In this document: piece after piece, positions 8,823-49,257 of the stretch
How the letters are laid out: the number at the start of each line of letters is the position of its first letter
Numbering within the stretch: position 1 is the stretch's first letter
Assembly: GCF_963675165.1 (NCBI RefSeq)
Contig: NC_087382.1
Coordinates: 6,124,315 to 6,188,314 of the forward strand
Origin: Halichondria panicea
Lineage: Eukaryota; Porifera; Demospongiae; Suberitida; Halichondriidae
Length of the DNA: 64,000 nt
Direction of reading: 5' to 3'
Program-made: the position numbers and the translations under genes
Notes under the pieces: generated by a model
What the model was told of the DNA's origin: nothing
What the model saw: only the letters and a program-made list of their open reading frames with translations
Databases searched by the model: none

Positions 8823-11800
8823 CTAAATTTGACTTATCACTCTGCTTGCTGCTAGCCTTATGTATTTCCTTAAGTGCATGCTGAACACATTCTCCTGGTA
8901 CTTCACTTCATAGACTAACAGGAAAGCAAGGAGAGATGCTCCAACCACAAACCCAACCAAATATCGCCTAACCACAAAGTTATCACCTAGTAAGTTACAG
9001 GCAAAAATGCATGAGCTCCAAAAGGCTATATCCACTAATAATGCAGGCTCAATATACATGCTCCATGATAGACTTACCTCCCACCTACGAATAGCCCTCT
9101 CCTCAACTGAAGGCACAAGTGTGCAGTTGTGCAAGAAAAACAACACAAAAAGTGTTCATTTCTGCAGCTGGGTGCCATTGTAGTGAGTGAACACAAATAT
9201 TCCGTATAGGCCTACTCTCCGTATCAGTAGGTTGTACATAGGATTGACAGTGCAGTTGTGTGTGTTTTCTACGGTGGCCCTGAGGTATACACCTACTTCA
9301 TTTTGCATTTGCGGTTCATTTCCCAGTTCAACTGCGCTTCTACAGTTCAACTAGGCTTATGCAGTTGGCTTTTGCAGTTGGCTTCTGCAGTTGGCTTTTA
9401 CAGTTGGCTTTTGCAGTTGCTCAATCACAATGATCACTTAAGGACATACTTAGAAGTACTGTATAGCAGACCTAAAAATGCTGATAGCAAGCCTGTAGAC
9501 CATAATTATACAATAATAATTAGATGTTGCAACAACATATTTCTGTCAGGTCTCCACAGTAAAAGTATTTCATCAGCAGATATGTTGTTGACTACTTACT
9601 ATCTAATTCTCTAATCAAGTCAGTGTGCAGTGGGTTGAGTTTGAGGGTGGAGAAAAACTCATGGTACTTGTGGGGGTGGTGTTTGACCACACCCAGCAGG
9701 GCAGTGAACAATCTGTTGGCTTTGTCAGCATTGATCTCGTTCAGCTGGTTAGTCTCTTGCAACACACGCTCAGTGATGAGTCCGACTGATAGCAAACGAA
9801 CAGCTATGGCTTTGGGCTCTTGGGAGAGTGACTCGACTATCTTCTCACTGCACCTCACTAGCACATTGTACCCAGCGTTACCTGCAGGAGAAAGTGTGTT
9901 TACAGCATGGTACACCCCCACATTGGAGCACCAGGTATATGAAACACACTGTATAAGGAAAGCACTAGATGGTATGGCGTACAAATACTAAACGTACAGA
10001 ATATACAAACAGGCTAACAGACCAAGTACATGGCTTTACAGTACACCGTACCCAACAGTACAATTATAGAATATGGTATTGAAGAATTATAAAGATACGC
10101 ACATACACGTAATATAAGGTACATGTGTACATAATTATTAATACCGTACAGCGCTTTAGTTTCGAGGCAATAACATTTCACGGACTAACCTCGAAACCAA
10201 TACCTCTCTACGAAATAAAATCTTGATCAATATTCAAAATTTTAGTGCCTCGAAAATAAAGTGCGATTAATACGGTACTAAATACACAGCATCACCATGA
10301 CTCCGACTATTAATTTACACTCACCACTGAATCCACTGAGTGTATGAATGTCCTTGAGTAGAGAGTCCACACTTCTCAACAGATTTGCTCCATTCTCAAC
10401 CAGGTCAACAAGAGCAGCTGTCTCCTCTGACTGGTCTGTAACATTGAATAAGAGGAAGCTCAAACACTCGATATTGTGGAGACGCGCATTTAGTAGCTTC
10501 TCACTTTGACAGTGTTTGAGTTTGACCTTGGCCACTAGATAAAGCTGGTGAGATAAAGTCTCCACCTTAGAGAGACCGGCTACAATGTTCTCACTGATGC
10601 TCCGTATTGAGCACTCATCAACAACCCTCCTGGTTACTACAACGACAGACGCTATCTCTGCCCGTATGGAGTCAGTGTGGGCAGCCAGATCCCTCAGAGA
10701 AGATGACCTGAGGTAGAAGATATCGTAAATTCTACAGTGTGATCATTAAAATAGTAAACATCTCACTGAAGTGCAGTTGTCATAGTCTCCATTAGTGAAA
10801 TTACACTCTCCACAGTAGAGCCAAGCTGTGAGGTGGTCATCTCACTAACTGTTATCCTCAGTCCTTCAGTAGCTTCCTAACAATCACACATGCATTGTAA
10901 GTAAATGAGATTGTACACACACACACGCACATGCAGTACACAGTACGGTCATAGATCAAGTAAGCAACATGCATATACTGTACAGACATTAAATTACTGA
11001 GCCATGATAATAATTATATAGTCCCACGTGGGTTGATGGCATTCAATAATTATATATGCAGCACGTGAGGCACCAATTACCGCATGTTGCTGCAGTTGCA
11101 AGAACTCTGCAAACGTCTGTATATGCTGTGGTTTAGCCATGCACGTGATCAAGTCGGTTACCACCCACTTGAAAAGGAGTGTTACAGCAGAACAAATCCA
11201 AGATAGGCTTGCAATCCGACCACAGAAGGTTGGATTATTAATTTTGTATAACATTCCCGCAGGCTTTTGTTGACTCTGCTGTGATACTAGTCCAATGCAT
11301 GTCTAACTATGCACGGCAGCCGTTTTAAAAGCCTTGTCTAATTTTTTTCACTGCCCTATTATTCACTGTCCTCTGTTAGTTGCTGCTAGGTTTCCATTAG
11401 CCTCGATTCCAAGCCGCTGAGAAAGACGGCCTGGTATACACTGTTTACGCATGCGCCAGAATTACCCAGAATCTGGGTAATCGTAAATTGCAGTATATTT
11501 ATCAGTATTCTTATTCCGCATTAGTTTGTAAAACATTGATATCGTTTCATTTATAATGATGTCATTGAAAAAAGAAATCTAGTCCAAGTTGTGTCAGTAA
11601 TGGCTGCTACCTTCTCTTCTGCTCTCGCGTACGCGTTATCCTGTGTTGGAAAACCAGGTCTAGTGAAAGACAAGCAGCTGGAGGCGTTGAAGTGTCTGTA
11701 CGCTGGTGTTTATGTGGGTACCGTACCGACCGGCTATGGCAAGTCCCAGAGCAAGTCCATCTGCTTTCCAGACACTCCCTTTCTTGATTGATATGAAGCT

Positions 11801-13980
11801 TGACAGGACCAGTGCACCTCTCTCTGAAAGAAGTGTTGTGATGGTGATTTCTCCTCTTGTTTCTCTGAGTGAAGCCATCTTCAAAGTGTTGGTGTGTCTG
11901 TTCGACGTTCAGTGCCATTCTCTCTGGAAGGAAGTATTGTTGTGACATTTGCCGAAAATTGGTCACAGAGTAAGTACGTGGTGATCCGAGAACTGTGTGG
12001 CCTGAATGTGTTTACAATCCGAGGGACTTGTGTGTATCCGATCCGAGGGACTTGTTGCTTGAGTGTGTATCCGGACTTGTTGCTTGAGTGTGTATTAATG
12101 GATAGTGCTTTCAATGGTAAATCTATTGTGTAAATCAATAAGTAGTCCTCACATTATGTTACGTCACAGCCACTGTACTTATCCACATTTATTTTTTACC
12201 CACAGGTTTAACTAATTTCTTATGAGATTAACTTGTCGCCTGAGTGTGTATCCGATCCGAGCCTCAAGTTAAATCTACAGACCTGATGTTTTACTTAGCT
12301 GTCTCTGTCTACAGTATATTATATACAGAGAGGTAGCCTCTTCTTTTTCTGTTCTCTTTATCACAATAAGATAAAATACTGTTTTAACGTTCAATGAGAT
12401 AAAATACGGTAAATAATAAATTAATTGTCCACCCACGCGCCAACAGTAAATACCAGGCCCACTATTCAAGGGGCTGGAGTCGAGGCTAGGTTTCCATATT
12501 CATTATAACATACTGATAATTATTTTGTGCAACACTCTGGTGTGAGACGTTTAGTATACATGAGAGGCTGTATACACTGTATACAAATGTAAATACGTGT
12601 ATATACCTGAAGTTTAGTAGTATCCACGACACCTTTGGGGGTGGGTGCTTTTAATTCTAGATGAAATTTGGCTTGGGGCAGCAATCCAGACAAGGAGATG
12701 GTACAAATGGTTTTCTTGGGAGCATTTTCGTCAGGGAAGAACCTGCATACTATCCTGGGAGGGTAGTCGTGGAGATCCTCGGCTCTGAAGTTCTCCGTCT
12801 CAGGTTGATCCACTTCACTACGGGAGATCTGAGAAATAAAGAGAATGATAATTAGAGTGTGTCCAACTTCATATTTACCGTTTCCTTGTCTGGTTCCACA
12901 GACCACCCATGTACTAGGGGTCTGTTGAGGGTGGCATACATCTCAATAAACGTCAGTGATCCTAGAATCGTCTTGTCAATTGACTTTGAAGACACTTCAG
13001 GATAGTCTCGTGGGATCAACACATTATCAAGTGTCTCCAGAAACTGTAAAACCGGGGTACGTAAAATAAGCACACTTTAATTGAGCGTTCTTACCTTAGT
13101 ATAAAGGCTCCCAAAGAGACAGACTCCAATGATGACTATCCTGTCCCCAGTTGTCTGTGGAGGAGACCGGTAGACTCTGACAGTGTAGAGGTTACTGTCA
13201 GTCGCCCCTACTTGTATTTGTTGAAACAAAAGCCATTCGCAATTACAAATTAACTTTTACCTCTCTTTCTCTGACCAACTTTGAAGAAGTTCTTCAGTCG
13301 TGTGACCAGCGTAAGTCTCCCCTTATTTCCTCCAGGAGTAAACTCTGACTTGCCCTCTGGTACCTCCCGGTACACGTAGACAATCTTGGAGCCGGATCTC
13401 TTGGGAAACAAGTCAGCTTGGAGAAAGAGGAGGTCGTTAGCTTCTTGTTGGGTGGACACTCGTATATGATGCTCCATGGTCAGGGTCACCTCTCCGTCTA
13501 GACCTTCACTCGAGATCAAGTAAGATGGACTTGCAGACTGAATGCCCTCAGGCATAACAAACACATCCTTGGGGGCAAGGCTGGGTTGGACTTTAATGCC
13601 TACAGAGGTTCCTGGAGGAAAAGCGTTAGCTCGAACAGTCACTTCAACTCCATTGTTAAAGTCAGCATGTCCACCACTGGAGGTGAACTCTTTCTTTTGA
13701 GGCTCATCATAGAAAGTGACGTCAGGGTGTGCAAAGGTTTGGTAGAGGGGATCTACACATGTGGTAAACACACAGACCATGTGCTAGATACACAACAGAA
13801 GCACACACTTACATCCAGGTGGTGTGGAGAGTGTATCATTTGTTCTTGTCTTGTTCTGGTAGACTGGCTTCTTTCTAAAGTTGACTCACAATCATAAAGC
13901 CATTGACTCAACTGTGCAGTAGTTACTCACGCTTCTGTGTCAGTGAAAACTGTCCAGTTTCTGGGGAGGATCCGAACAGA
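8823..13980 (-). CDS. ZU5 and CARD-like domain protein, exons 3-13 (probably continuous with the PH exons upstream)
   Basis: Exons on the minus strand (plus coordinates): 13931-13980, 13813-13874, 13261-13752, 13095-13207, 12879-13043, 12607-12828, 11081-11167, 10767-10876, 10325-10707, 9600-9881 and 8823-9106; all borders are GT-AG and all phases agree. The 492-bp exon encodes a ZU5 domain (SSGGHADFNNGVEVTV through LDGEVTLTMEHHI), a beta-sandwich known from ankyrin, UNC5 and PIDD. A beta-rich region of unknown type follows (exons 6-8), then a helical segment (exons 9-11), then a CARD/death-fold-like helical bundle (exon 12, ending HEFFSTLKLNP). The last exon would add a hydrophobic helix (YLVGFVVGASLLAFLLVYEV). 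Exon 12 may instead stop at 9592. The C-terminus is the least certain part. Confidence 0.65.
10142..10277. mobile_element. MITE of the TACCGTAnnGCG family in an intron
   Basis: The 136-bp unit begins TACCGTACAGCGCTTTAG and ends in TACGGTA, with a cctcgaaa/tttcgagg core. It belongs to the same family as 32971-33181 and 40791-41029. It lies in the intron between exons 11 and 12 of the ZU5 gene. Confidence 0.65.
11398..12488. mobile_element. 1091-bp TAGCCTC-family transposon with a 9-bp target-site duplication
   Basis: The left end TAGCCTCGATTCC is preceded by GGTTTCCAT (11389-11397). The right end GGAGTCGAGGCTA is followed by the same GGTTTCCAT (12489-12497). The element sits in the intron between exons 8 and 9 of the ZU5 gene, in the opposite reading direction. 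It carries a broken RecQ-like helicase stretch. Its right part also contains an internal TAGCCTCTTC at 12333 followed by sequence that is the reverse complement of the right end of the element at 39013-39802. A 9-bp duplication suggests the Mutator-like group, but no transposase is visible. Confidence 0.75.
11600..11960 (+). pseudogene. RecQ-like helicase fragment inside the transposon
   Basis: From the ATG at 11600 a short frame reads through KQLEALKCLYAG and VPTGYGKSQSK, which has the Walker A motif (GYGKS) in the context usual for RecQ-type superfamily II helicases. The frame stops at 11791. In another frame, VMVISPLVSLSEAIFKVL (about 11838-11895) matches motif Ia (VISPLxSL) at the expected distance. 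The fragment is broken by a frameshift and has no later helicase motifs, so it is a captured or decayed piece. It could also be a true exon of an unrecognised nested gene. Confidence 0.6.
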
Positions 13981-34329: not shown

Positions 34330-34379
34330 TAGCCTCGATTCCAGGCTGCCATCGTCCCTGCGGTTTGGAATCGAGGTTA
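34330..34379. mobile_element. 50-bp TAGCCTC-family hairpin, no visible target duplication
   Basis: TAGCCTCGATTCCAGGC at the left and GGTTTGGAATCGAGGTTA at the right form an imperfect palindrome 160 bp after the receptor stop codon. The flanking nonamers differ, so it may be an old insertion. Confidence 0.6.
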
Positions 34380-34779
34380 ATGAGCTCGCAATTGGAGAGT
34401 AATTATATGTTTAAAGCTCTACGTGCAAGCAGCATTGTGTCTATATACTTCTTTAATCTTGGTTTTGTATATATTACTTATTTTATTATGCTATGGTGAG
34501 TCAATTGTTCCGGTTATATTCTTTCGATTCATATAGTCGTTATTCTTTGTCGAGCAAATTGTAAGCAATTAACGGTTCACTATATGCTTTTCGCAACAAC
34601 TGCCAAGGCAACCAGCAATATACTCCGTCACAATAAATGCAGCATAGCAAGTTGCCAATTCAATGAGTATGATACTAGTATTGCGACCCTTGTACATGTA
34701 CGTTCATGCAATATATACGAAGACTTTTATTGCTCAGCTACAAAATACTAAGACTGCGTGTACCGGTATAAATAGGTCT

Positions 34780-35400
34780 AGCCTTTATAATATATTATCC
34801 TCCTATTGAGGTCAAGAATGATGTGTGAACTGTCTATATGGCTGCCATTTACGAAGGGAGTAGCCTCACTCTAAGCCGGGGTGAGTACATCAATAACTTA
34901 TATATAATTATATGCAGGTGGTGGGTGATGTGATTTCCTATGCACCTTGCAAAAAATGCCATAACTTATCCTGTATACGATGTGGGCCACTTTCAGGGGA
35001 AAACCCTTCCTCTCTCTGAAGCTACATGCACTCATACCTCCAAATTCACTCCTCTCGGCTTCAGCAATAAATGAGTCTTCTCCATTGAGGTCGAGTTGTG
35101 AACTGTCTACGAGTATGTCAACTACGAAGGGTACAAGCTCACTCTGGGAGTTGGGAAGTATGTTATTTTATCTCAGAGAAAATTGGTAATTCAGAGCTTT
35201 ATTCCTTTGTGTGTGAACTACACAGCAACATCTAGTTGGGCGTCCGACCTTCCGTTAAGAAAAAGAGGTCGGGTTTCAAGTTAATGTCAGCCGCTGGATT
35301 TTAATGGCGTTGTCTCCTCTATTACTCACTCTGAAAGTGGGAAAGTATACTAGTAATCTGTGAAACGATGTCATCTTCTCAGTGAAGAGAACAGCTACAC
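34780..35400 (+). pseudogene. Dead betagamma-crystallin copy
   Basis: Crystallin phrases can be followed at nucleotide level: cctattgaggtcaagaatg, aactgtctatatgg, ttacgaagggagtagcctcac (34850), then gggccactttcaggggaaaac (34983), tcctctcggcttcagcaata (35053), actacgaagggtacaagctcac (35120) and gggaagtatgt. Stops, insertions and large gaps break every frame. It lies between the two receptor genes, which links the crystallin array and receptor cluster by duplication. Confidence 0.85.
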
Positions 35401-35447
35401 TATTATAGCAATTGTAAGCTATAAGCTGTTCTCTTCACTGAGAAGAT
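35373..35447. repeat. 24-bp perfect inverted repeat at the end of the crystallin relic
   Basis: Bases 35373-35396 (ATCTTCTCAGTGAAGAGAAC and on) are the exact reverse complement of 35424-35447, with a 27-bp loop. It looks like a local inverted duplication of crystallin 3' sequence, not a terminator. Confidence 0.75.
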
Positions 35448-35751
35448 ACACATACATAAAAGCCTCTATTATATAGTATAGATCCTTTGTATAATTATTG
35501 GCCAGGGAAAACACCAGACAGTGTGGAAACGAGAACTCTGTCAAGAGCATAACTCCACTCCACATGTATTGAACCGAGGAACCTGCTAGAAATTGAACGC
35601 ATAGTACACAGTAACACCGTAATTACCAGGGGCGTAGCTTAATGGTTTCCTAGTTGGCCAGAAACCCCCACTTGCTGAAAAATGGGTGGGGCTGATCATG
35701 TGCTGAAGTTAATATTGACCAGAGTAGATTAATATCCAGTCTGTTTTTATT

Positions 35752-36266
35752 TAACCTCGAGACCAGCCGTTCGTTATCTGAAAGAACGCCTGGTCAAGTT
35801 CCAATGTAGCACTAGCCTCGATCCCAGGCCGCACTTCCTCGAAGAGTGGCCTGGGATCGAGGCTAGTGCTACATTGGGGCCAGTGAAGGAGGCTAATATG
35901 TAGCCTCGAACCAGGCCCAATGTAAGTTTTACATTGGGCCTGGTTCGAGGCTAAGGCTAATGTAGCACTCGTCCAGCGGTCCAGGAATATAATTGCCCGC
36001 AACAAGGTGTGAAAACCTACCCGTGAATATCATTATGACGTTACAGCAACGGCAGCTAGCTAGCTTGGACCTAGCCTTGATTCGGCCTTGAATCGAGGCT
36101 AGGTCCAAGCTAGCTAGCTGCCGTTGCTGCACGGTAAATAATTATGGTTTTCACACCTTGTTGCGGGCAATTATCGGTCCAAGAAATTCCTGGACCACTG
36201 GACGAGTGCTACATTGGAACTTGACCAGGCGTTCTTTCAGATAACGAACGGCTGGTCTCGAGGCTA
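35752..36266. mobile_element. 515-bp palindromic TAGCCTC-family element
   Basis: The outer arms (TAACCTCGAGACCAGCCG at left, CGGCTGGTCTCGAGGCTA at right) extend as near-perfect inverted repeats to a centre at about 36087, where a 30-bp TAGCCTTGA...TCGAGGCTA hairpin sits (36072-36101). Flanks are GTTTTTATT (35743-35751) and GTATTTATT (36267-36275), an 8 of 9 match. The left arm is lengthened by the nested insertion at 35813-35959. Confidence 0.75.
35813..35959. mobile_element. Composite of two TAGCCTC hairpins nested in the left arm, with 9-bp duplication
   Basis: The insert begins with a 53-bp hairpin (35813-35865) and ends with another (35901-35953) plus aggcta. ATGTAGCAC occurs on both sides (35804-35812 and 35960-35968) but only once in the matching right arm, which proves the insertion. 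The inner spacer repeats flanking words, indicating more than one event. Confidence 0.75.
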
Positions 36267-36777
36267 GTATTTATTGGTTACCTTCTGCAATCCAAGATAA
36301 GAGACCAAGATCAGCCCAGTTCCTCTACTACTGCTCAGAGTCAGACTCCAGACTGTATTTTACAGCGTATACTGCTAATGGCTGGAGACTAGCAAGAGTA
36401 TGGATTGATATCTAGCTTGGATTTATTTCAATGCCTATTATTAATACTGCAATCCAAGATAAAAGACCTGATTGTCAGCCCAGTTCCTCTATACTGCATG
36501 CTCAGACTCCAAACTGCATGTATATGCAGTCTCACCACAATCTGATTCTCAGCCACCAACCTCAGAGCTCATGCCCACTGTCAATGCCAATGGTACTGAT
36601 CCTGGTAGTACATTTGTACTTACAGTTTAGGAGATGAGGCCGAGGAGAACGACTTAGCAAATAAGGGGTGTAACCGGCATAATTAAGAGGCGTGGCACCG
36701 GAAATGGGCGTGGTCTAAAAATTTAGCGGCACTGTCGCGCCGCCTTATTCCTTTAGAAACCCCTTTTAGTAAATGTC

Positions 36778-36826
36778 TAGCCTCGATTCCAGGCCGATTA
36801 AAATACTCTGCCTTGAATCGAGGCTA
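36778..36826. mobile_element. 49-bp TAGCCTC hairpin with 9-bp duplication GTAAATGTC
   Basis: TAGCCTCGATTCCAGGC...GCCTTGAATCGAGGCTA is flanked directly by GTAAATGTC on both sides (36769-36777 and 36827-36835). It is inserted close to the right end of the CAGGGGCGTAGC element. Confidence 0.85.
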
Positions 36827-39012: not shown

Positions 39013-39802
39013 TAGCCTCGTTCCCAGGCCTTACTTTTTCTTGCTGTTGTCACTGTTCATCCATAAACATAAAAAGACATAGTGAGGCAGCAAAGAAAGA
39101 AATGGGCGTACAGTTAAGAAAAAGTAAGGCCTGGTTTGGGAAATCGCGTGATCCACAAGGATTTTTATGAACGTGGGCGATATGTAGCCCACAATTGTGA
39201 CGTGGTATTCTCCCACGCATTCAGAGTAAGGACTGTACTACTAGTACTATACTGTACTTGTACTGAGACAACCACCAAGCTGTGCTGCAAGTCAGATCAG
39301 AGAACCAGCGTGGCCAGCTCTGGTGGCAGTAGCTACCTGCTATATGATAATGATGACTAAGCTATTCTACTCTAGCATGTAGAAAGACACAAGAAAAGGT
39401 AATAGTGATAGAATCTAAACACACAATCTAGACTAGTAGTAGTAGATCATCTAGCTAAGCCTAAGGTATATAGCTAGCTATAGTGCTTGCAAACTTCCAG
39501 TTCCAAGTCCATGTCCAGCTTAATTGCTGCAGGCAAAGTTTTATTAGTCATAGACCTCTGCGTGGGCAGTCCAACATCTCTAGCTCAGTATGCCCACGCT
39601 CATTTTCACCCTTCTACCACCCTTCTACCCTCACGCGACTTCCCGATACAGGCTCTCCTTTTTCCTAACTCTACGTCTATTTCTTTCTTTATTCCTCCAA
39701 TTAATACCGTATTTTATCTCATTGAACGAATGATACAGTATTTTATCTTATTGAACGATTGTGATAAAGAGAACAGAAAAAGGAGAGCCTGTGTAGAGGC
39801 TA
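39013..39802. mobile_element. 790-bp TAGCCTC-family element with 9-bp duplication GTTATACAC
   Basis: The left end TAGCCTCGTTCCCAGGCC is preceded by GTTATACAC (39004-39012). The right end GTGTAGAGGCTA is followed by GTTATACAC (39803-39811). The paralogous intron copy (about 33440-33470) continues without the insert. The left part has an inner inverted repeat (39029-39048 against 39116-39134, ggccttactttttcttgc). The right part matches 5563-5745 and, inverted, 12333-12415. No transposase frame is visible. Confidence 0.8.
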
Positions 39803-41171: not shown

Positions 41172-44135
41172 TCACACTTCATTGTGTATGGGACCGATTT
41201 CTGTGTGTGTAACAACAGGACGACGGTTGATTCTTAGAGGGGGAGGGGCTGATATTCCGTAGTCCTCTGCGGTGAGGGGGGCTAGTTCATCCAGGGCAGG
41301 CTCTCTCAGCTGGTCTGGCCTCGTGGCTGGTCTGATGATGGGAGGAGTGATGTATCGATCAGGGTCAGTTTCTTCCATGGCTCCATCAGTGTAAGGTGGT
41401 GTGTCCACAATGTCTTTTTGCTCAGCTATAAGTTGTTCATCGTCATCGTCATCAATTTCATTTGCTGCAAACTGATCCATGGTATTGTTAGGTTCTCGGT
41501 TCTTTTTGTATGCAACACCAGTTGTCAAGTTTTTTGCGACTTGCTTTATCTTGAGCCATGTTTTAGTCTTCTTTAGTATGTAGTGGTGGAAATGGTAGCT
41601 GATTATTGTCACAAAGAGAATGAAAGCTATGGACATTGAAACATTGGTCAGTATTTCTTGCTGTTGGTGTATTTCAGCAACATATAAAGTACCAATAGAT
41701 AGAATGCCGAGATTAAGCAGAAGGAACGTTTCTAGATATTCGTTAAATTGCTTTTTGTGCACTCGGTTGGTCAATGTTATCAGTCCGAATGCAATACACC
41801 CAGATGATAGAACAGGGAAAGAAGTGTTTGGAGCCATGGCAACTACTAGATTATGAGCAATCAGTGCAAAGAGGAGCAGTCCCACCCAGTAGCGATGCTT
41901 GGGAGTGAATGGAGCATGGTATGCATCCATGAAACCATTGTAGTATGTGTTTTTGGTCCATATCATAACCTTGGAACAGCGAGGAAACCATTGTCCAAAG
42001 AAGAGCAGTATAGTGAACAATTCACCGGCAATGAGGATTATGGCTGCAGCAACAAACTGAGGAATGTTATTGGGAGTGAAGTATAGTACATTGCCGTCAA
42101 ACAACCAAACAGTCTTGGTTGAACCGTCGGAATATTCCAAGACCCTGTTTTGTAGTGCAGCAACGATAAACCGTAAGAATTTTGAATAAGAGAGTAGGAC
42201 AAGTGTGCCTAGGGCAGCAACTGGATTCCTGTTGGAGAGGAGCTTTGAAAAGGAGTCAAAGTACTTGCTCAAAATTATAATAAGAAGCATTAGAAGAAAT
42301 AGGTAAGCGGGAAAGACAAGTTGAAGGAGTACTTTGGCTTGAGAGTTCATTCCATCATAAAAGCATGTCTCAATTCCCAGGTCAAGATTCACCCATGATA
42401 CAAAAACTGTTAAAAAGTTGTTTAAACTAGGAAAGAAAATTGCTCTATTAGCAGCTAATATGTTGGCGTAAAATACGAGGCCATGAATAGTTCCAGTTGC
42501 TATAGTGATGTTGAGCACGAGAATTAAAACAACTAGCAATATGCCAGCCAGTGCAAATGGTATTAGTAGAATAAGGTAAAGATTAGAGCATTCTTTACAG
42601 TCTGACGTAGCCAACACAAGACTGAAATTTGATTTACATTCTCCACACAAGACACCACTTCGATTGTAGGCACACTGTTCGTCATGGTTGCTTAGACTGA
42701 TGTTGACTGGTTTTTGCACACAATAGTTAAGTGTACAGCTGCTAACAACATACCCTGTTCCATTGGTGGTATTTGTGACTTCGATCCATGTGTTGTTATT
42801 TCTTTCCAGCGTTATGTTTCCATTTTCCTCAAAACAATTTGATATTTGATGTCCTTGTTGCAAGTCTGGATCACAGTCACACTTGCACTCAATATCAGAT
42901 TGAATTGGTTTGAGTCCAATAGGGCATATGCAGGATTGAAAAGAAATATTAAAAAGTTTTCTTGAAATTCCTAAGTTGAAGCATGGACCCTCGGCATAAA
43001 GTTCCACTTGAGCAAAACTGTCTTGTGAGAATACATTGTATTCTAATTCTGTGCACTGATTGCCAACTTCTTGTTCTGCCTGTCCTTCTTTGAGACGACC
43101 AACTCCACTCTCAGTTACAACAGAACTGTGAATTGTCGCACTCATTGGATTTCCAACTTGGTCAACAGCCATAACACTGATTTTAAATGTGTATCCCTTT
43201 CTTGTCGAAATAATGCCGTAGTTATTTTTGCAAAAAAATACTTGCACAGGCCTAGAGGATATTGATAATTCGGTGGAGGATTTTATGGTTTTATTTATGT
43301 AGTCCAATCCATTTAAAGCATTGTTATATTCAGCAGTTTGACTTGCAGTACACCTGTCCAACAGACCTCCATAGATGTCTGCTCCTGACTGGGTAGCTGT
43401 GTTGTTAGTCATGAATGTGTTACAGTTTGGGCTGCCACGAGAACTATACAATTGAATTGTTTGAAAAAAGCATTCAGCAAAACTAGTTTGAGTAGCATCA
43501 TCTTCAGTGATCCTTTCTCCACACGTGCTCTTCTGTGTGTCATCCGCCACAAAGATCCCCCCTCCGTACTGTCGAGCCAAGTTGTTGTTGATCAATAACG
43601 TCACAAAAAGATCCTGTAATTCTTTTTTAAATAAGTACAGTTTCGAATCCTGCTGTAGATACACTCCACCTCCATTAGCGTTAGCTGTGTTTGATTCAAT
43701 GTTGACGTGTGATCGAGTAAGATTAAGGGTTGTTGCTACTGCATAAATACCTCCACCATTCTCAGCAATGTTGTCAGTAATCTCACTTCGTTTATTTGGA
43801 GTGTTAAATTCAAGCGTGCTTGAATATGCATAAATCCCTCCACCATGCTTGTGTGCTGTGTTGCGATAGATCTTTATTGGCTCATTTACAAAAAGTGCAC
43901 TTTCTCTTAAAAATATCCCTCCTCCGGAGATAGCTTTGTTGTTGGTGATCAGTACTCCTTCTGTGTTAATGTATATTTGACTCTGTACGACACTGATGGC
44001 TCCTCCTAGCACACCACGATTGTTACTGAGTGTTGTTGGTCCATTAAACTCAACTCGACTGTTGACAGCAGCATAAATAATGCCTTCATCCATCATAGAA
44101 CTGGCCGTGTTATTAGTAACGTTAGTGTTTTTCAA
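41172..44135 (-). CDS. Multi-pass membrane half of a beta-helix repeat protein
   Basis: A continuous frame of about 987 residues. The N-terminal third has beta-helix repeats with GGGI/GGAI and NNxA motifs of the polymorphic-membrane-protein type. Next comes a cysteine-rich extracellular segment (CICPIG, CKCDCDPD, CGECKSNF, CKECSN). Then about nine hydrophobic segments follow (first LYLILLIPFALAGILLVVLI, last MSIAFILFVTIISYHF). The cytoplasmic tail is acidic (IDDDDDEQL) and proline-rich. The first residue is not an ATG, and the frame continues the preceding repeat ORF after a short break at 44136-44158. I therefore read both as one gene. It is probably a cell-surface protein of unknown ligand; the sequence does not establish a GPCR. 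Confidence 0.75.
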   Translation of the reverse strand: MKNTNVTNNTASSMMDEGIIYAAVNSRVEFNGPTTLSNNRGVLGGAISVVQSQIYINTEGVLITNNKAISGGGIFLRESALFVNEPIKIYRNTAHKHGGGIYAYSSTLEFNTPNKRSEITDNIAENGGGIYAVATTLNLTRSHVNIESNTANANGGGVYLQQDSKLYLFKKELQDLFVTLLINNNLARQYGGGIFVADDTQKSTCGERITEDDATQTSFAECFFQTIQLYSSRGSPNCNTFMTNNTATQSGADIYGGLLDRCTASQTAEYNNALNGLDYINKTIKSSTELSISSRPVQVFFCKNNYGIISTRKGYTFKISVMAVDQVGNPMSATIHSSVVTESGVGRLKEGQAEQEVGNQCTELEYNVFSQDSFAQVELYAEGPCFNLGISRKLFNISFQSCICPIGLKPIQSDIECKCDCDPDLQQGHQISNCFEENGNITLERNNNTWIEVTNTTNGTGYVVSSCTLNYCVQKPVNISLSNHDEQCAYNRSGVLCGECKSNFSLVLATSDCKECSNLYLILLIPFALAGILLVVLILVLNITIATGTIHGLVFYANILAANRAIFFPSLNNFLTVFVSWVNLDLGIETCFYDGMNSQAKVLLQLVFPAYLFLLMLLIIILSKYFDSFSKLLSNRNPVAALGTLVLLSYSKFLRFIVAALQNRVLEYSDGSTKTVWLFDGNVLYFTPNNIPQFVAAAIILIAGELFTILLFFGQWFPRCSKVMIWTKNTYYNGFMDAYHAPFTPKHRYWVGLLLFALIAHNLVVAMAPNTSFPVLSSGCIAFGLITLTNRVHKKQFNEYLETFLLLNLGILSIGTLYVAEIHQQQEILTNVSMSIAFILFVTIISYHFHHYILKKTKTWLKIKQVAKNLTTGVAYKKNREPNNTMDQFAANEIDDDDDEQLIAEQKDIVDTPPYTDGAMEETDPDRYITPPIIRPATRPDQLREPALDELAPLTAEDYGISAPPPLRINRRPVVTHTEIGPIHNEV

Positions 44136-44155
44136 GATCAGGAGAGACTGAGAAA

Positions 44156-46222
44156 TTAAATCACTCCATAGTCAGCACTGTTGTTTGTCAGTTCACAGTT
44201 GGAAATGAACACACTGCCTGAGTAAAGAGCACTGATCGCTCCACCATAGTCAGCACTGTTGTTTGTCAGCTCACTGTTGGAGATGGACACACTACCAGAA
44301 ACAACAGCAATCGCTCCACCATACAGCTCACCCGAGGAAAAAATCGATCCACCATCAGAGACAGCACTGTTGTTTATCAGCTCACTGTTGAAGATGGTGA
44401 CATTACCTGAGACACCAATCGCTCCACCCCAGTCAGCTCTGTTGTTTTTCAGCTCGCTGCAGGAAATGGAAACACTACCCGAGACAACAGAAATTGCTCC
44501 ACTAAGGTCAGCACTATTGTTTATCAGCTCGCTGGTCAGGATGGTCACATTACCTGAGGTGCTAATCGCTCCACCAATGTGAGCTCTGTTGTTTGTCAGC
44601 TCACTGTTGGAGATGGACACACTACTACCACCTGGGGCAACAAAAATCGCTCCACCATCATTGTTAGCACTGTTGTGTGTCAGCTCGCTGTTGAAGATGA
44701 ACACGCTACCTGCGGAAACACTAATCACTCCACCAATTACAGCATTGTTGTTTGTCAGCTTACTGTTGGAAATGGACCCGCTACCCGAGAAAACACTAAT
44801 CGCTCCACCATAAAAACCAGCACTATTGTTTTTCAGCTCACTGTTAGAGATGAGCACACTACCTGCGGTAACAATTATAATTGCTCCACCACTACCATAG
44901 TCTGCTCTGTTGTATGTCAGCTCACTGTTGGAGATGGACACATTACCCGAGGAAAAAATCGCTCCACCATTAGAGACAGCACTGTTGTTTGTCAGCTCAC
45001 TGTTAGAGATGGACACATTACTCGAGGAAACATGAATTGCTCCACCATAGTTAGCTCTGTTGTTTGTCAGTTCACTGTTAGAGATATCGATGGTCAAATT
45101 ACCTGAGTAAAGTGTATTAATCGCTCCACCACCATAGACAGCACTGTTGTTTGTCAGTTCACTGTTAGAGATATCGATGGTCACATTGCCTGAGAAAAAT
45201 GTATTAATCGCTCCACCATAGTTAGCTCTGTTGTTTGTTAGTTCACTGTTAGAGATATCGATTGTCACATCGCTTGAGAAAAGTATATTAATCGCTCCAC
45301 CATAGTTAGCTCTGTTGTAGATATCGATATTACCTGAGTAAACACTGATCGCTCCGCCGCCGCTGTCGGCACTGTTGTTTGTCAGCTCACAGTTGGATAT
45401 GTTTACACTACTGCCCGAACCAACATGAATCACTCCACCATCTTGAGCAGCTTCATTATTTGTAAAGTTACACCAAGTGATCACTACAGTTCCAGATACC
45501 ACTTTTACTGCTCCTCCGCTCTCAGCATTGTTATAGTTGAACTCCGTGTTGTTGATCAGAGAGTTGTTTGATTGAATGTAAGCTGCACCTCCATTATTTC
45601 TAGTGAACTCACTATTTGTTACGTACACATCATCAGCCTCAACGTGCAGTGCCCGACCAGTGTTGTTCATAAAGAGAGTGTTCTCAATTGTTGCAGTTTG
45701 AGTGTTAGCAATCTTAACTACGCAGGTTTTCACCTGATTGAGTAATTCATAGTCCGAAAAGTAGCAGTCTTTGATATAGATATCATGGGCACTGTCAATG
45801 ATGATCAAACTTTGATCAAAGTTTTGTGGTCCAAGATTCGCTCCAACGAAACCCAAGTTTTCAATGCTCAATTCAGTAATACTAACAAAAAGTATCGTAC
45901 TGCTATGAAATCCAACTACAGTTGTACTTGTGTTCTGGCCAGTGATTTGCACATGTGAGAAATTACGAATTAATAACTGCTCAGGTAACACATGATCTCC
46001 AGGTAGAAAGCTCAAGGTGAGATTGTCTCCACCAGATAACAGGTCTGTTTTAACAAGCTGCTCGAGAGCAAAACAAGTTCCATTTCGATAGTCATGACAC
46101 AAGTCAATTGAATCCACTGGCACAATGTGATAGTGCTCGCTCCTGGTAACAGTAGCTAGGGTCAGTAACACTAACCAGTTGAGAATGTTTCTAGACAGCA
46201 TATCTGAGGTGCATGCGTACAT
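44156..46222 (-). CDS. Secreted beta-helix repeat half (Pmp-like), N-terminal part
   Basis: The frame is open for 688 residues from 46222; an internal ATG at 46201 gives a better signal peptide (MLSRNILNWLVLLTLATVT). Residues about 30-230 form a non-repetitive parallel beta-helix start. About 18 repeats of roughly 21-25 residues follow, with SISNSELTNN and GGAI cores. At DNA level these are a coding minisatellite (44180-45420). The repeat is like chlamydial Pmp adhesins, but the attached eukaryotic signal and membrane half and the position among animal genes argue against bacterial DNA. The frame ends at TAA 44156-44158, 20 bases before the second half resumes in another frame. Confidence 0.75.
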   Translation of the reverse strand: MYACTSDMLSRNILNWLVLLTLATVTRSEHYHIVPVDSIDLCHDYRNGTCFALEQLVKTDLLSGGDNLTLSFLPGDHVLPEQLLIRNFSHVQITGQNTSTTVVGFHSSTILFVSITELSIENLGFVGANLGPQNFDQSLIIIDSAHDIYIKDCYFSDYELLNQVKTCVVKIANTQTATIENTLFMNNTGRALHVEADDVYVTNSEFTRNNGGAAYIQSNNSLINNTEFNYNNAESGGAVKVVSGTVVITWCNFTNNEAAQDGGVIHVGSGSSVNISNCELTNNSADSGGGAISVYSGNIDIYNRANYGGAINILFSSDVTIDISNSELTNNRANYGGAINTFFSGNVTIDISNSELTNNSAVYGGGAINTLYSGNLTIDISNSELTNNRANYGGAIHVSSSNVSISNSELTNNSAVSNGGAIFSSGNVSISNSELTYNRADYGSGGAIIIVTAGSVLISNSELKNNSAGFYGGAISVFSGSGSISNSKLTNNNAVIGGVISVSAGSVFIFNSELTHNSANNDGGAIFVAPGGSSVSISNSELTNNRAHIGGAISTSGNVTILTSELINNSADLSGAISVVSGSVSISCSELKNNRADWGGAIGVSGNVTIFNSELINNSAVSDGGSIFSSGELYGGAIAVVSGSVSISNSELTNNSADYGGAISALYSGSVFISNCELTNNSADYGVI

Positions 46223-47238: not shown

Positions 47239-49257
47239 GGGACATTCCATGTGAACTCAACACAAAAAAATGAGCACCCCCTCCGATTTCAACGAAACTT
47301 GGTATATACATACCTTACCAAAATATAAGTTATATAACCACACCTAATTTTAGCCCTATATGTCGTATGGCTTCTTAGTTACGAGCCCTTGAAAATTCAC
47401 CAAAACAAAAAAATATCGGTGACCCACCTATGCTTCTTAGAGCATAACTTCTGCCATGATTAATTATGGCAGATAAAAACTGTACCACCATACTCCCTAT
47501 GATATGACCTTTCCAGTGACATGCTTAAAGGGGGTGGGCACTCGTTAAAGGGTCAAAGGTCATTATCGTAACCTTTAATTACTCAAAAATGGCGTCTTTT
47601 TTTTACCAAACTAGTCTTTAGGTACTATTTCCCGGCTTGTATAAGTTTTGTGATGGGATCTTTATGGGATCAGAAGATATGGACTTTGCAATACAAGTCG
47701 GTGCAATTATTAACATGCCTGTGGGGCATTCCATACCAATTTAAACGGATGACTTGTCAGAATTCTCCGAAATTTCATACATACATAGAGTACGGTGAGG
47801 TAATAACACACATAAGAATTTAGAGTTATTTATTGTATGGCTTCTGGGGTGTGGCCACCTGAATATTGCCGTTTTCCCAGACAGTTTCACTCACTTAGTT
47901 GTACGTAAAAGAGAGATAACTTATGATCAGAGTGTTTCCAAGATGCGTCACTAATATCAACTTGTAGCTTATGTAACAGGGTAGCCTCGAATCCACGCCG
48001 ATTAATATTTTAATCGGCGTGGATTCGAGGCTAGTAACAGGGTTTCGTATGGTATGTTGTGCGGCTTCTATTAATCAATTTACTGATTATGGGATACATG
48101 TTAAACTTGATTTAGATTTTTCTTTGATTGAAAAAATGTTTTTTCTAATGTATAATGATCAACTACAATTACCCTCTTTGTAGAACAAATTTGGTGATGG
48201 GATCATAATGGGTTTTGGACATAATAATTAATTTGTGTATACTCAAATGAATTTTTTTGTAATAAAGGTGTTAACAACATAATTACACATAATTATCTCC
48301 AAAACTCATTATGATCCCATCACCAAATTTTTTCTACAAAGAGGGTAATTGTAGTTGATCATTATACATTAGAAAAATTTTTTTTCAATTGGTTGTTTCA
48401 AAGAAAAATCTAAATCAAATTTTAACATGTATCCCATAATCAGTAAATTGATTAATAGAAGCCGCACAACATACCATACGAAACCCTGTTACATAAGCTA
48501 CAAGTTGATATTAGTGACGCATCTTGGAAACACTCTGATCATAAGTTATTTCTCTTTTACATACAACTAAGTGAGTGAAACTGTCTGAGAAAACGGCCAT
48601 ATTCAGGTGGCCATACCCCAGAAGCCATACAATAAATAACTCTAAATTCTTATGTGTCTTATTATCTCACCGTACTCTATGTATGTATGAAATTTCGGAG
48701 AATTCTGACAAGTCATCCGTTTAGGTAATGTTGAATTGGTATGGAATGCCCCACAGGCATGTTAATAATTGCACTGACTTGTATTGCAAAGTCCATATCT
48801 TCTGATCCCATCACAAAACTTATACAAGCCGGGAAATAGTACCTAAAGACTAGTTTGGTAAAAAAAAAGGAAAAAAAAGACGCCATTTTTGAGTAATGCT
48901 TAATTAAAGGTTACGATAATGACCTTTGACCCTTTAACGCACGTCACCGGAAAGGTAATATCATAAGGAGTACGGTGGTACAGTTTTATCTGTCATAATT
49001 AATCATGGCAGAAGTTTACAGTTTTATCTGTCATAATTAATCATGGCAGAAGTTATGCTCTAAGAAGCGTAGGTGGGTCACCGATATTTTTTAGTTTCGG
49101 TGAATTTTCAAGGGCTCGTAACTAAGAAGCCATACGATATATAAGGCTAAAATTGGGTGTGGTTATATAACTTATGGTAAGGTATGTATATACCAAGTTT
49201 CGTTGAAATCGGAGGGGGTGCTCATTTTTTTGTGTTGAGTTCACATGGAATGTTCCC
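47239..49257. repeat. 2-kb palindrome (arms of about 970 bp)
   Basis: The left arm (47239 to about 48222) begins GGGACATTCCATGTGAACTC. The right arm (about 48292 to 49257) ends GAGTTCACATGGAATGTTCCC and runs back through every landmark of the left arm: ggagggggtgctca, gacccaccta, ttgagtaat, gatgggatc, cagtaaattgattaatag. Arms differ by scattered substitutions and a few indels, including a local 37-bp duplication in the right arm (48977-49050). No long frame is present. The spacer is about 70 bp of AT-rich sequence. Confidence 0.9.
47982..48033. mobile_element. 52-bp TAGCCTC hairpin inserted in the palindrome arm, 9-bp duplication GTAACAGGG
   Basis: TAGCCTCGAATCCACGCCG is answered by CGGCGTGGATTCGAGGCTA, a stem of 24 of 26 base pairs. 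GTAACAGGG lies directly on both sides (47973-47981 and 48034-48042). The right arm of the palindrome has the same site uninterrupted with one GTAACAGGG, so insertion after arm formation is proven by the sequence itself. Confidence 0.92.

Follow-up and report, generated by a model that had tools for sequence, protein, structure and literature searches.

The 52-bp hairpin at positions 47982-48033 of the window, by which we mean the whole stretch of 64,000 nucleotides of the sponge Halichondria panicea analysed here (contig NC_087382.1, C6:6124315-6188314), is best read as a non-autonomous palindromic miniature of a TAGCC-ended transposon of the AcademH type, which would have arisen by deletion and would be served by a transposase encoded elsewhere; we put the probability of this reading at roughly 0.78. 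The hairpin equals its own reverse complement at 50 of 52 positions, folds into a stem of 24 bp closed by a 4-nt loop, and sits in the left arm of a roughly 2-kb inverted repeat, bordered on both sides by exact copies of one 9-bp target.

47239-49256, no strand: 2-kb inverted repeat with the insertion in its left arm, from the arm alignment
47973-47981, forward strand: left 9-bp target-site duplication, GTAACAGGG
47982-48033, no strand: 52-bp palindromic non-autonomous element, TAGCCTCGAATCCACGCCG...CGGCGTGGATTCGAGGCTA
48034-48042, forward strand: right 9-bp target-site duplication, GTAACAGGG
48484-48492, reverse strand: empty site with one target copy, CCCTGTTAC, in the opposite arm

Aligned against each other, the two arms are 94.5% identical over 924 columns, and their difference at the hairpin measures 61 bp, exactly the 52 bp of the hairpin plus one 9-mer; none of the nine further gaps between the arms (1-37 bp) resembles it. 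The single target copy in the opposite arm is thus a natural empty site, and the first-pass annotation, which had described the hairpin, its flanking 9-bp duplication and the empty site, proved exact in its coordinates. Its reading of the site as a mobile insertion whose stagger is always 9 bp is borne out by this filled and empty pair together with the 9-bp duplications found around other hairpins of the genome. An Rfam scan of the window at gathering scores gave no match to a known structured RNA. Both termini of the 2-kb palindrome read GGGA(A)CATTCCATG, with AAT on each outer side, and the palindrome may itself be a foldback transposon flanked by a duplicated 3-bp target.

The hairpin belongs to a large family. 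Its 13-bp end, TAGCCTCGAWTCC, occurs 2832 times without mismatch (1486 + 1346) in the 131-Mb genome, as against no occurrence of the same pattern read backwards, and paired ends 10-40 bp apart were found at 173 places, as against none in the backwards-read control. Among the first 47 hairpins read (4 of 50 sites, sharing 30-bp flanks with another site, were left out), 24 carry an exact 9-bp duplication, and no exact match was seen at other lengths from 4 to 12 bp. In a wider, non-random set of 71 hairpins with flanks, taken mostly from the 50 of 173 sites that come first along the contigs (C1 into the beginning of C4) and for the rest from other places, the duplication is exact in 40 cases with 38 distinct sequences, has one mismatch in 6 more and two mismatches in 4, and there is not a single exact match at 4-8 or 10-12 bp. 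Swapping flanks between sites led us to expect 0.5-0.6 exact duplications (0.63 for the set of 71). The first-pass annotation had proposed a count of this kind over the whole genome, against shuffled controls, and had named missing duplications or one recurring set of flanks as the outcomes that would speak against mobility; what was found among the hairpins read is duplications at many different targets. Hairpins with exact duplications span 35-65 bp, the smallest being a 35-bp copy (L151:164-198, target ACTAATGAT) that lies 9 bp from another TAGCC element. The duplicated target favours a G at its start and a C at its end (36 of 60 symmetrised counts from 30 distinct duplications). A few groups of hairpins have their flanks in common and are segmental copies (L034/L035/L040-L042 and L003/L008/L011). 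When a 16-base end was compared with viral contigs, 2 matches were returned.

Neighbouring copies often stand exactly 9 bp apart with one common duplication (L069:231-332, L145:49-231); at L069 the layout is target, element, target, element, target, and L145 has the same layout with one mismatched copy. Among 96 sites, the 50 that were listed gave 40 distinct spacers between neighbours, of which 11 are 9 bp long (1.3 expected per length, P ~4e-8) and 6 are 4 bp long.

The same ends, again within exact 9-bp duplications, also bound longer copies, of 516, 602, 606, 871, 1085, 1091, 1355 and 1927 bp. In the main long families the outer end unit, TAGCCTCGATT, is followed by a small subterminal inverted repeat, CCAGGCC...GGCCTGG (for example CCAGGCCG-ATTAAAATA-CGGCCTGG), and the 58/59-bp palindromes correspond to two such outer ends joined within the loops, at ATACG/TAT. 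The 59-bp class retains the one-base asymmetry between left and right that is seen in the 602/606-bp elements, and therefore both ends contributed to it; forms shorter than 58/59 bp lack bases around the centre. From this comparison of sequences, we infer that the palindromes derive from longer copies through internal deletion: two ends bearing the subterminal inverted repeat would have been joined near the loops to give a near-perfect palindrome of 58/59 bp, and additional central deletions would have produced the forms of 35-54 bp.

Three long copies that share these ends and the 9-bp duplication (1091, 1085 and 5,643 bp) contain RecQ-like helicase sequence. The 1085-bp copy (L098, duplication GATTTATGA) holds the start of the helicase, as does the 1091-bp copy of the window. 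The longest copy, at C14:5650576-5656218, was located through a RecQ-piece match with a long open frame in a genome search of which 150 of 278 matches were scored; its ends are TAGCCTCGATTCA and TAGCCTCGACTCA and its exact duplication is GGTAAACAC. One strand of this 5,643-bp copy gives matches to DEAD (8.7e-13), Helicase_C (6.7e-12) and RecQ_Zn_bind (5.9e-06), and the opposite strand, convergent with the helicase, carries DUF6589 in several open pieces (1.9e-15 and 2.7e-31 in two of them). Since the last DUF6589 piece looks frame-broken when compared by eye with a database relative, the copy is probably dead. Conserved D, D and E/D residues of the DUF6589 protein, which matches Hermes weakly, suggest a transposase. 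Only the first part of the DUF6589 domain is modelled and the database matches listed are exon-sized; no single polypeptide spanning the whole was seen among the best 120 of 231 and the best 120 of 148 matches. Eighteen of 60 DUF6589 loci lie at most 6 kb from a RecQ-like place, as against about 1 expected, and 42 do not, a linkage computed on all 150 and all 92 places, which are scored candidates and no census. Of two further loci with both RecQ and DUF6589, L117 has the same left end with no right end within 1.8 kb, and L118 has no TAGCC end within 1.6 kb. More distant DUF6589 matches, each contained in one open frame (1617-1732 codons), lie at G000 C3:3629098, C9:1650827 and C14:4797543. 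Our literature search for DUF6589 found no paper.

In passages of PMC10045372 that quote Kojima 2020 (Mob DNA 11:15), AcademH elements are described as having a duplication of 9-10 bp and an encoded helicase, and AcademX elements as having a duplication of 3-4 bp and a nuclease. Exact 9-bp duplications flank the 40 hairpins counted above and long TAGCC elements including the 5,643-bp copy, and the latter encodes a helicase; because these two traits fit the published description, we call the TAGCC elements AcademH-type, a term that falls short of proven membership in the AcademH family. The same passages make no mention of palindromic derivatives of 35-65 bp. The short hairpins further have every trait of miniature inverted-repeat transposable elements (MITEs), as they are short and non-coding, carry inverted repeats and a duplication, exist in many copies and have their ends in common with a longer coding element. 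As to the mechanism, a transposase encoded elsewhere, for which the DUF6589 protein encoded alongside the RecQ-like helicase is a candidate, would recognise the ends of about 18 bp, and insertion would proceed through paired cuts 9 bp apart, so that the target would be duplicated; that DUF6589 is the transposase and that it acts in trans on the short forms is what we infer.

How the window copy came to measure 52 bp is a separate question, since it may either have been inserted at this length or have shrunk later. In the latter case, a TAGCC element of greater length, anywhere from 58 bp to several kb, would have landed at this place and then lost its middle, and the 52-bp hairpin would never have moved as such; for the size of this one copy, we regard that history as a serious contender, at somewhat below even odds. 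Central palindromes are prone to deletion, most structures below 58 bp are known from one target only, and L137 has kept an exact duplication although part of one end is lost, from which it follows that shrinkage after insertion also occurs. On the other side, one 58-bp palindrome is present letter for letter at six sites, five of which have different exact duplications, and therefore it is very probable that the 58-bp form was mobile in its palindromic state. Two different duplications, to within one mismatch, are likewise found around identical copies of each of three other forms, a 45-mer, a 48-mer and a 59-mer, and no large shrinkage was seen among the segmental copies (L034/L035/L040-L042 all 48 bp, L003/L008/L011 58-59 bp). 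A 52-bp relative, at L101, has an exact duplication of its own. The first-pass annotation had gone as far as to propose that TAGCCTC ends alone suffice for mobilisation, which is too strong, given that the shortest exactly duplicated copies are 35-36 bp long, or about 18 bp per end; these copies could also be remnants formed after insertion.

One may go further and take the 35-58-bp palindromes, which are little larger than two ends of 18-29 bp, to be sufficient substrates in themselves, mobilised and multiplied by a transposition system of RecQ helicase and DUF6589, the subterminal hairpin both yielding the miniatures and being read as a structure; we hold this extended proposal to be unlikely as a whole. 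Improbable, too, is the idea that movement is driven by structure, the transposase, assisted by the helicase of the element, recognising an extruded or single-stranded hairpin instead of double-stranded ends, so that near-palindromes would be favoured. The abundance of palindromes and the helicase encoded by the element are compatible with it, as is the folding of long-element ends, of which 10 of 25 have a z-score ≤ -2, in nine cases by way of the subterminal hairpin, whose loops differ, bearing in mind that ends within one family are not independent. Yet folding is weaker or absent (z > -2) at the other 15 ends, the tenth folding end (the right end of the element at 39013-39802) uses a different hairpin, and inverted repeats flanked by a duplication of constant 9-bp length are ordinary for DDE transposition of double-stranded DNA.

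Duplications of 9 bp are typical of Mutator-like elements (MULEs), which also have terminal inverted repeats as well as MITE and foldback forms, and the first-pass annotation had pointed to a Mutator-like transposase on that ground. The genome does contain 31 matches to the MULE transposase (PF10551), and the duplication length is compatible with mobilisation by it. However, in the 30 loci that were cut out, with flanks of about 1.5 kb, no MULE transposase was seen between TAGCC ends. A TAGCC-like 13-mer (at most 2 mismatches) is present in 15 of these loci; in the 14 inspected (all but L084), the matches were taken either as nested insertions, each bounded by a duplication of its own, or as matches at a constant position across copies of a MULE group. 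Inspection of the MULE loci and of the nearby TAGCC-like matches having disclosed none enclosed by TAGCC ends, a Mutator origin was rejected as a candidate. The helicase and DUF6589 pieces of the TAGCC element gave no MULE match at E ≤ 0.1, and the coding copies between TAGCC ends hold RecQ-like sequence, with DUF6589 in the longest. Mobilisation by a MULE is accordingly very improbable, and the hairpin family is most likely AcademH rather than Mutator. Finally, copying of flanks by segmental duplication or replication, to which the few groups with common flanks might point, can be dismissed as a general explanation since the exact duplications comprise 38 distinct sequences, and the empty site in the opposite arm of the 2-kb palindrome likewise speaks against it.

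Further TAGCC elements, one of them from a related family, lie elsewhere in the window.

11398-12488, forward strand: 1091-bp element that shares the ends of the 52-bp hairpin, lies between exact 9-bp copies of GGTTTCCAT and contains the N-terminal region of a RecQ-like helicase (open reading frame 11591-11791)
35813-35865, no strand: 53-bp hairpin whose arms have diverged (CGATCCCAGGCC), part of a cluster of nested inverted repeats
35901-35953, no strand: 53-bp hairpin with diverged arms (CGAACCAGGCCC) in the same cluster as 35813-35865
36778-36826, no strand: 49-bp element of the family of the 52-bp hairpin, with exact duplication GTAAATGTC
39013-39802, forward strand: 790-bp element of a related TAGCCTC family with exact duplication GTTATACAC and ends less alike

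The nested cluster extends over 34330-36826 with several diverged TAGCC hairpins, and a 30-bp TAGCC hairpin at 36072-36101 forms the centre of a longer palindrome within it. The related family, of about 750-790 bp, has TAGCCTC ends that differ in their inner sequence (TAGCCTCGTTCCC / TAGCCTCTACA) and also 9-bp duplications; it was seen at 39013-39802, L002:255-1000 and L003:699-1468. Beyond these elements, long open frames on the reverse strand of 41175-46222 match Chlamydia-PMP-like and beta-helix repeats and stand within a tandem-repeat array, and crystallin and immunoglobulin domains are also found in the window.

A palindromic miniature as such is an already known kind of element. MADE1, of about 80 bp, is a palindromic miniature of human Hsmar1; it belongs to the mariner family and uses a TA target. 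Like the sponge hairpins it is a near-palindromic miniature made from two transposon ends, and it differs from them in its family and target, its larger size and in having no known helicase-bearing relative. A palindromic transposable element is also described, in passages of PMC6382214, as lying behind mir-548. Repetitive hairpin-forming elements of sponge mitochondrial genomes, as described in passages of PMC2800124, are comparably short and dispersed with variable loops; they are mitochondrial, and that text shows neither transposase nor duplication for them. KolobokH and Kolobok-1_CCri, according to an extract of PMC9587614, resemble the TAGCC elements in combining a RecQ helicase with a DDE transposase in one element, once on the complementary strand, whereas Kolobok duplicates TTAA and the TAGCC elements duplicate 9 bp. 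Our search of the literature on very short or palindromic MITEs, judged by titles and the opening of abstracts among the records listed, yielded no comparable nuclear case, and one may exist in print. Within the literature searched, what is new is the extreme size range of the palindromic miniatures, their derivation from hairpin-bearing ends and the partnership of DUF6589 with RecQ.

The TAGCC elements, which bear 9-bp duplications over the whole range from 5.6 kb to 35 bp, amount to a set of internal deletions made by nature, and the least DNA that an AcademH-type transposase requires can be read off from it. They also tie DUF6589, a domain without a named function, to a helicase-bearing transposon with defined ends, and they illustrate that palindromy and duplication length alone can lead to the misassignment of such elements to Mutator. 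If a DUF6589/RecQ system does move the short palindromes, DUF6589 would be the transposase of a large and widespread group.
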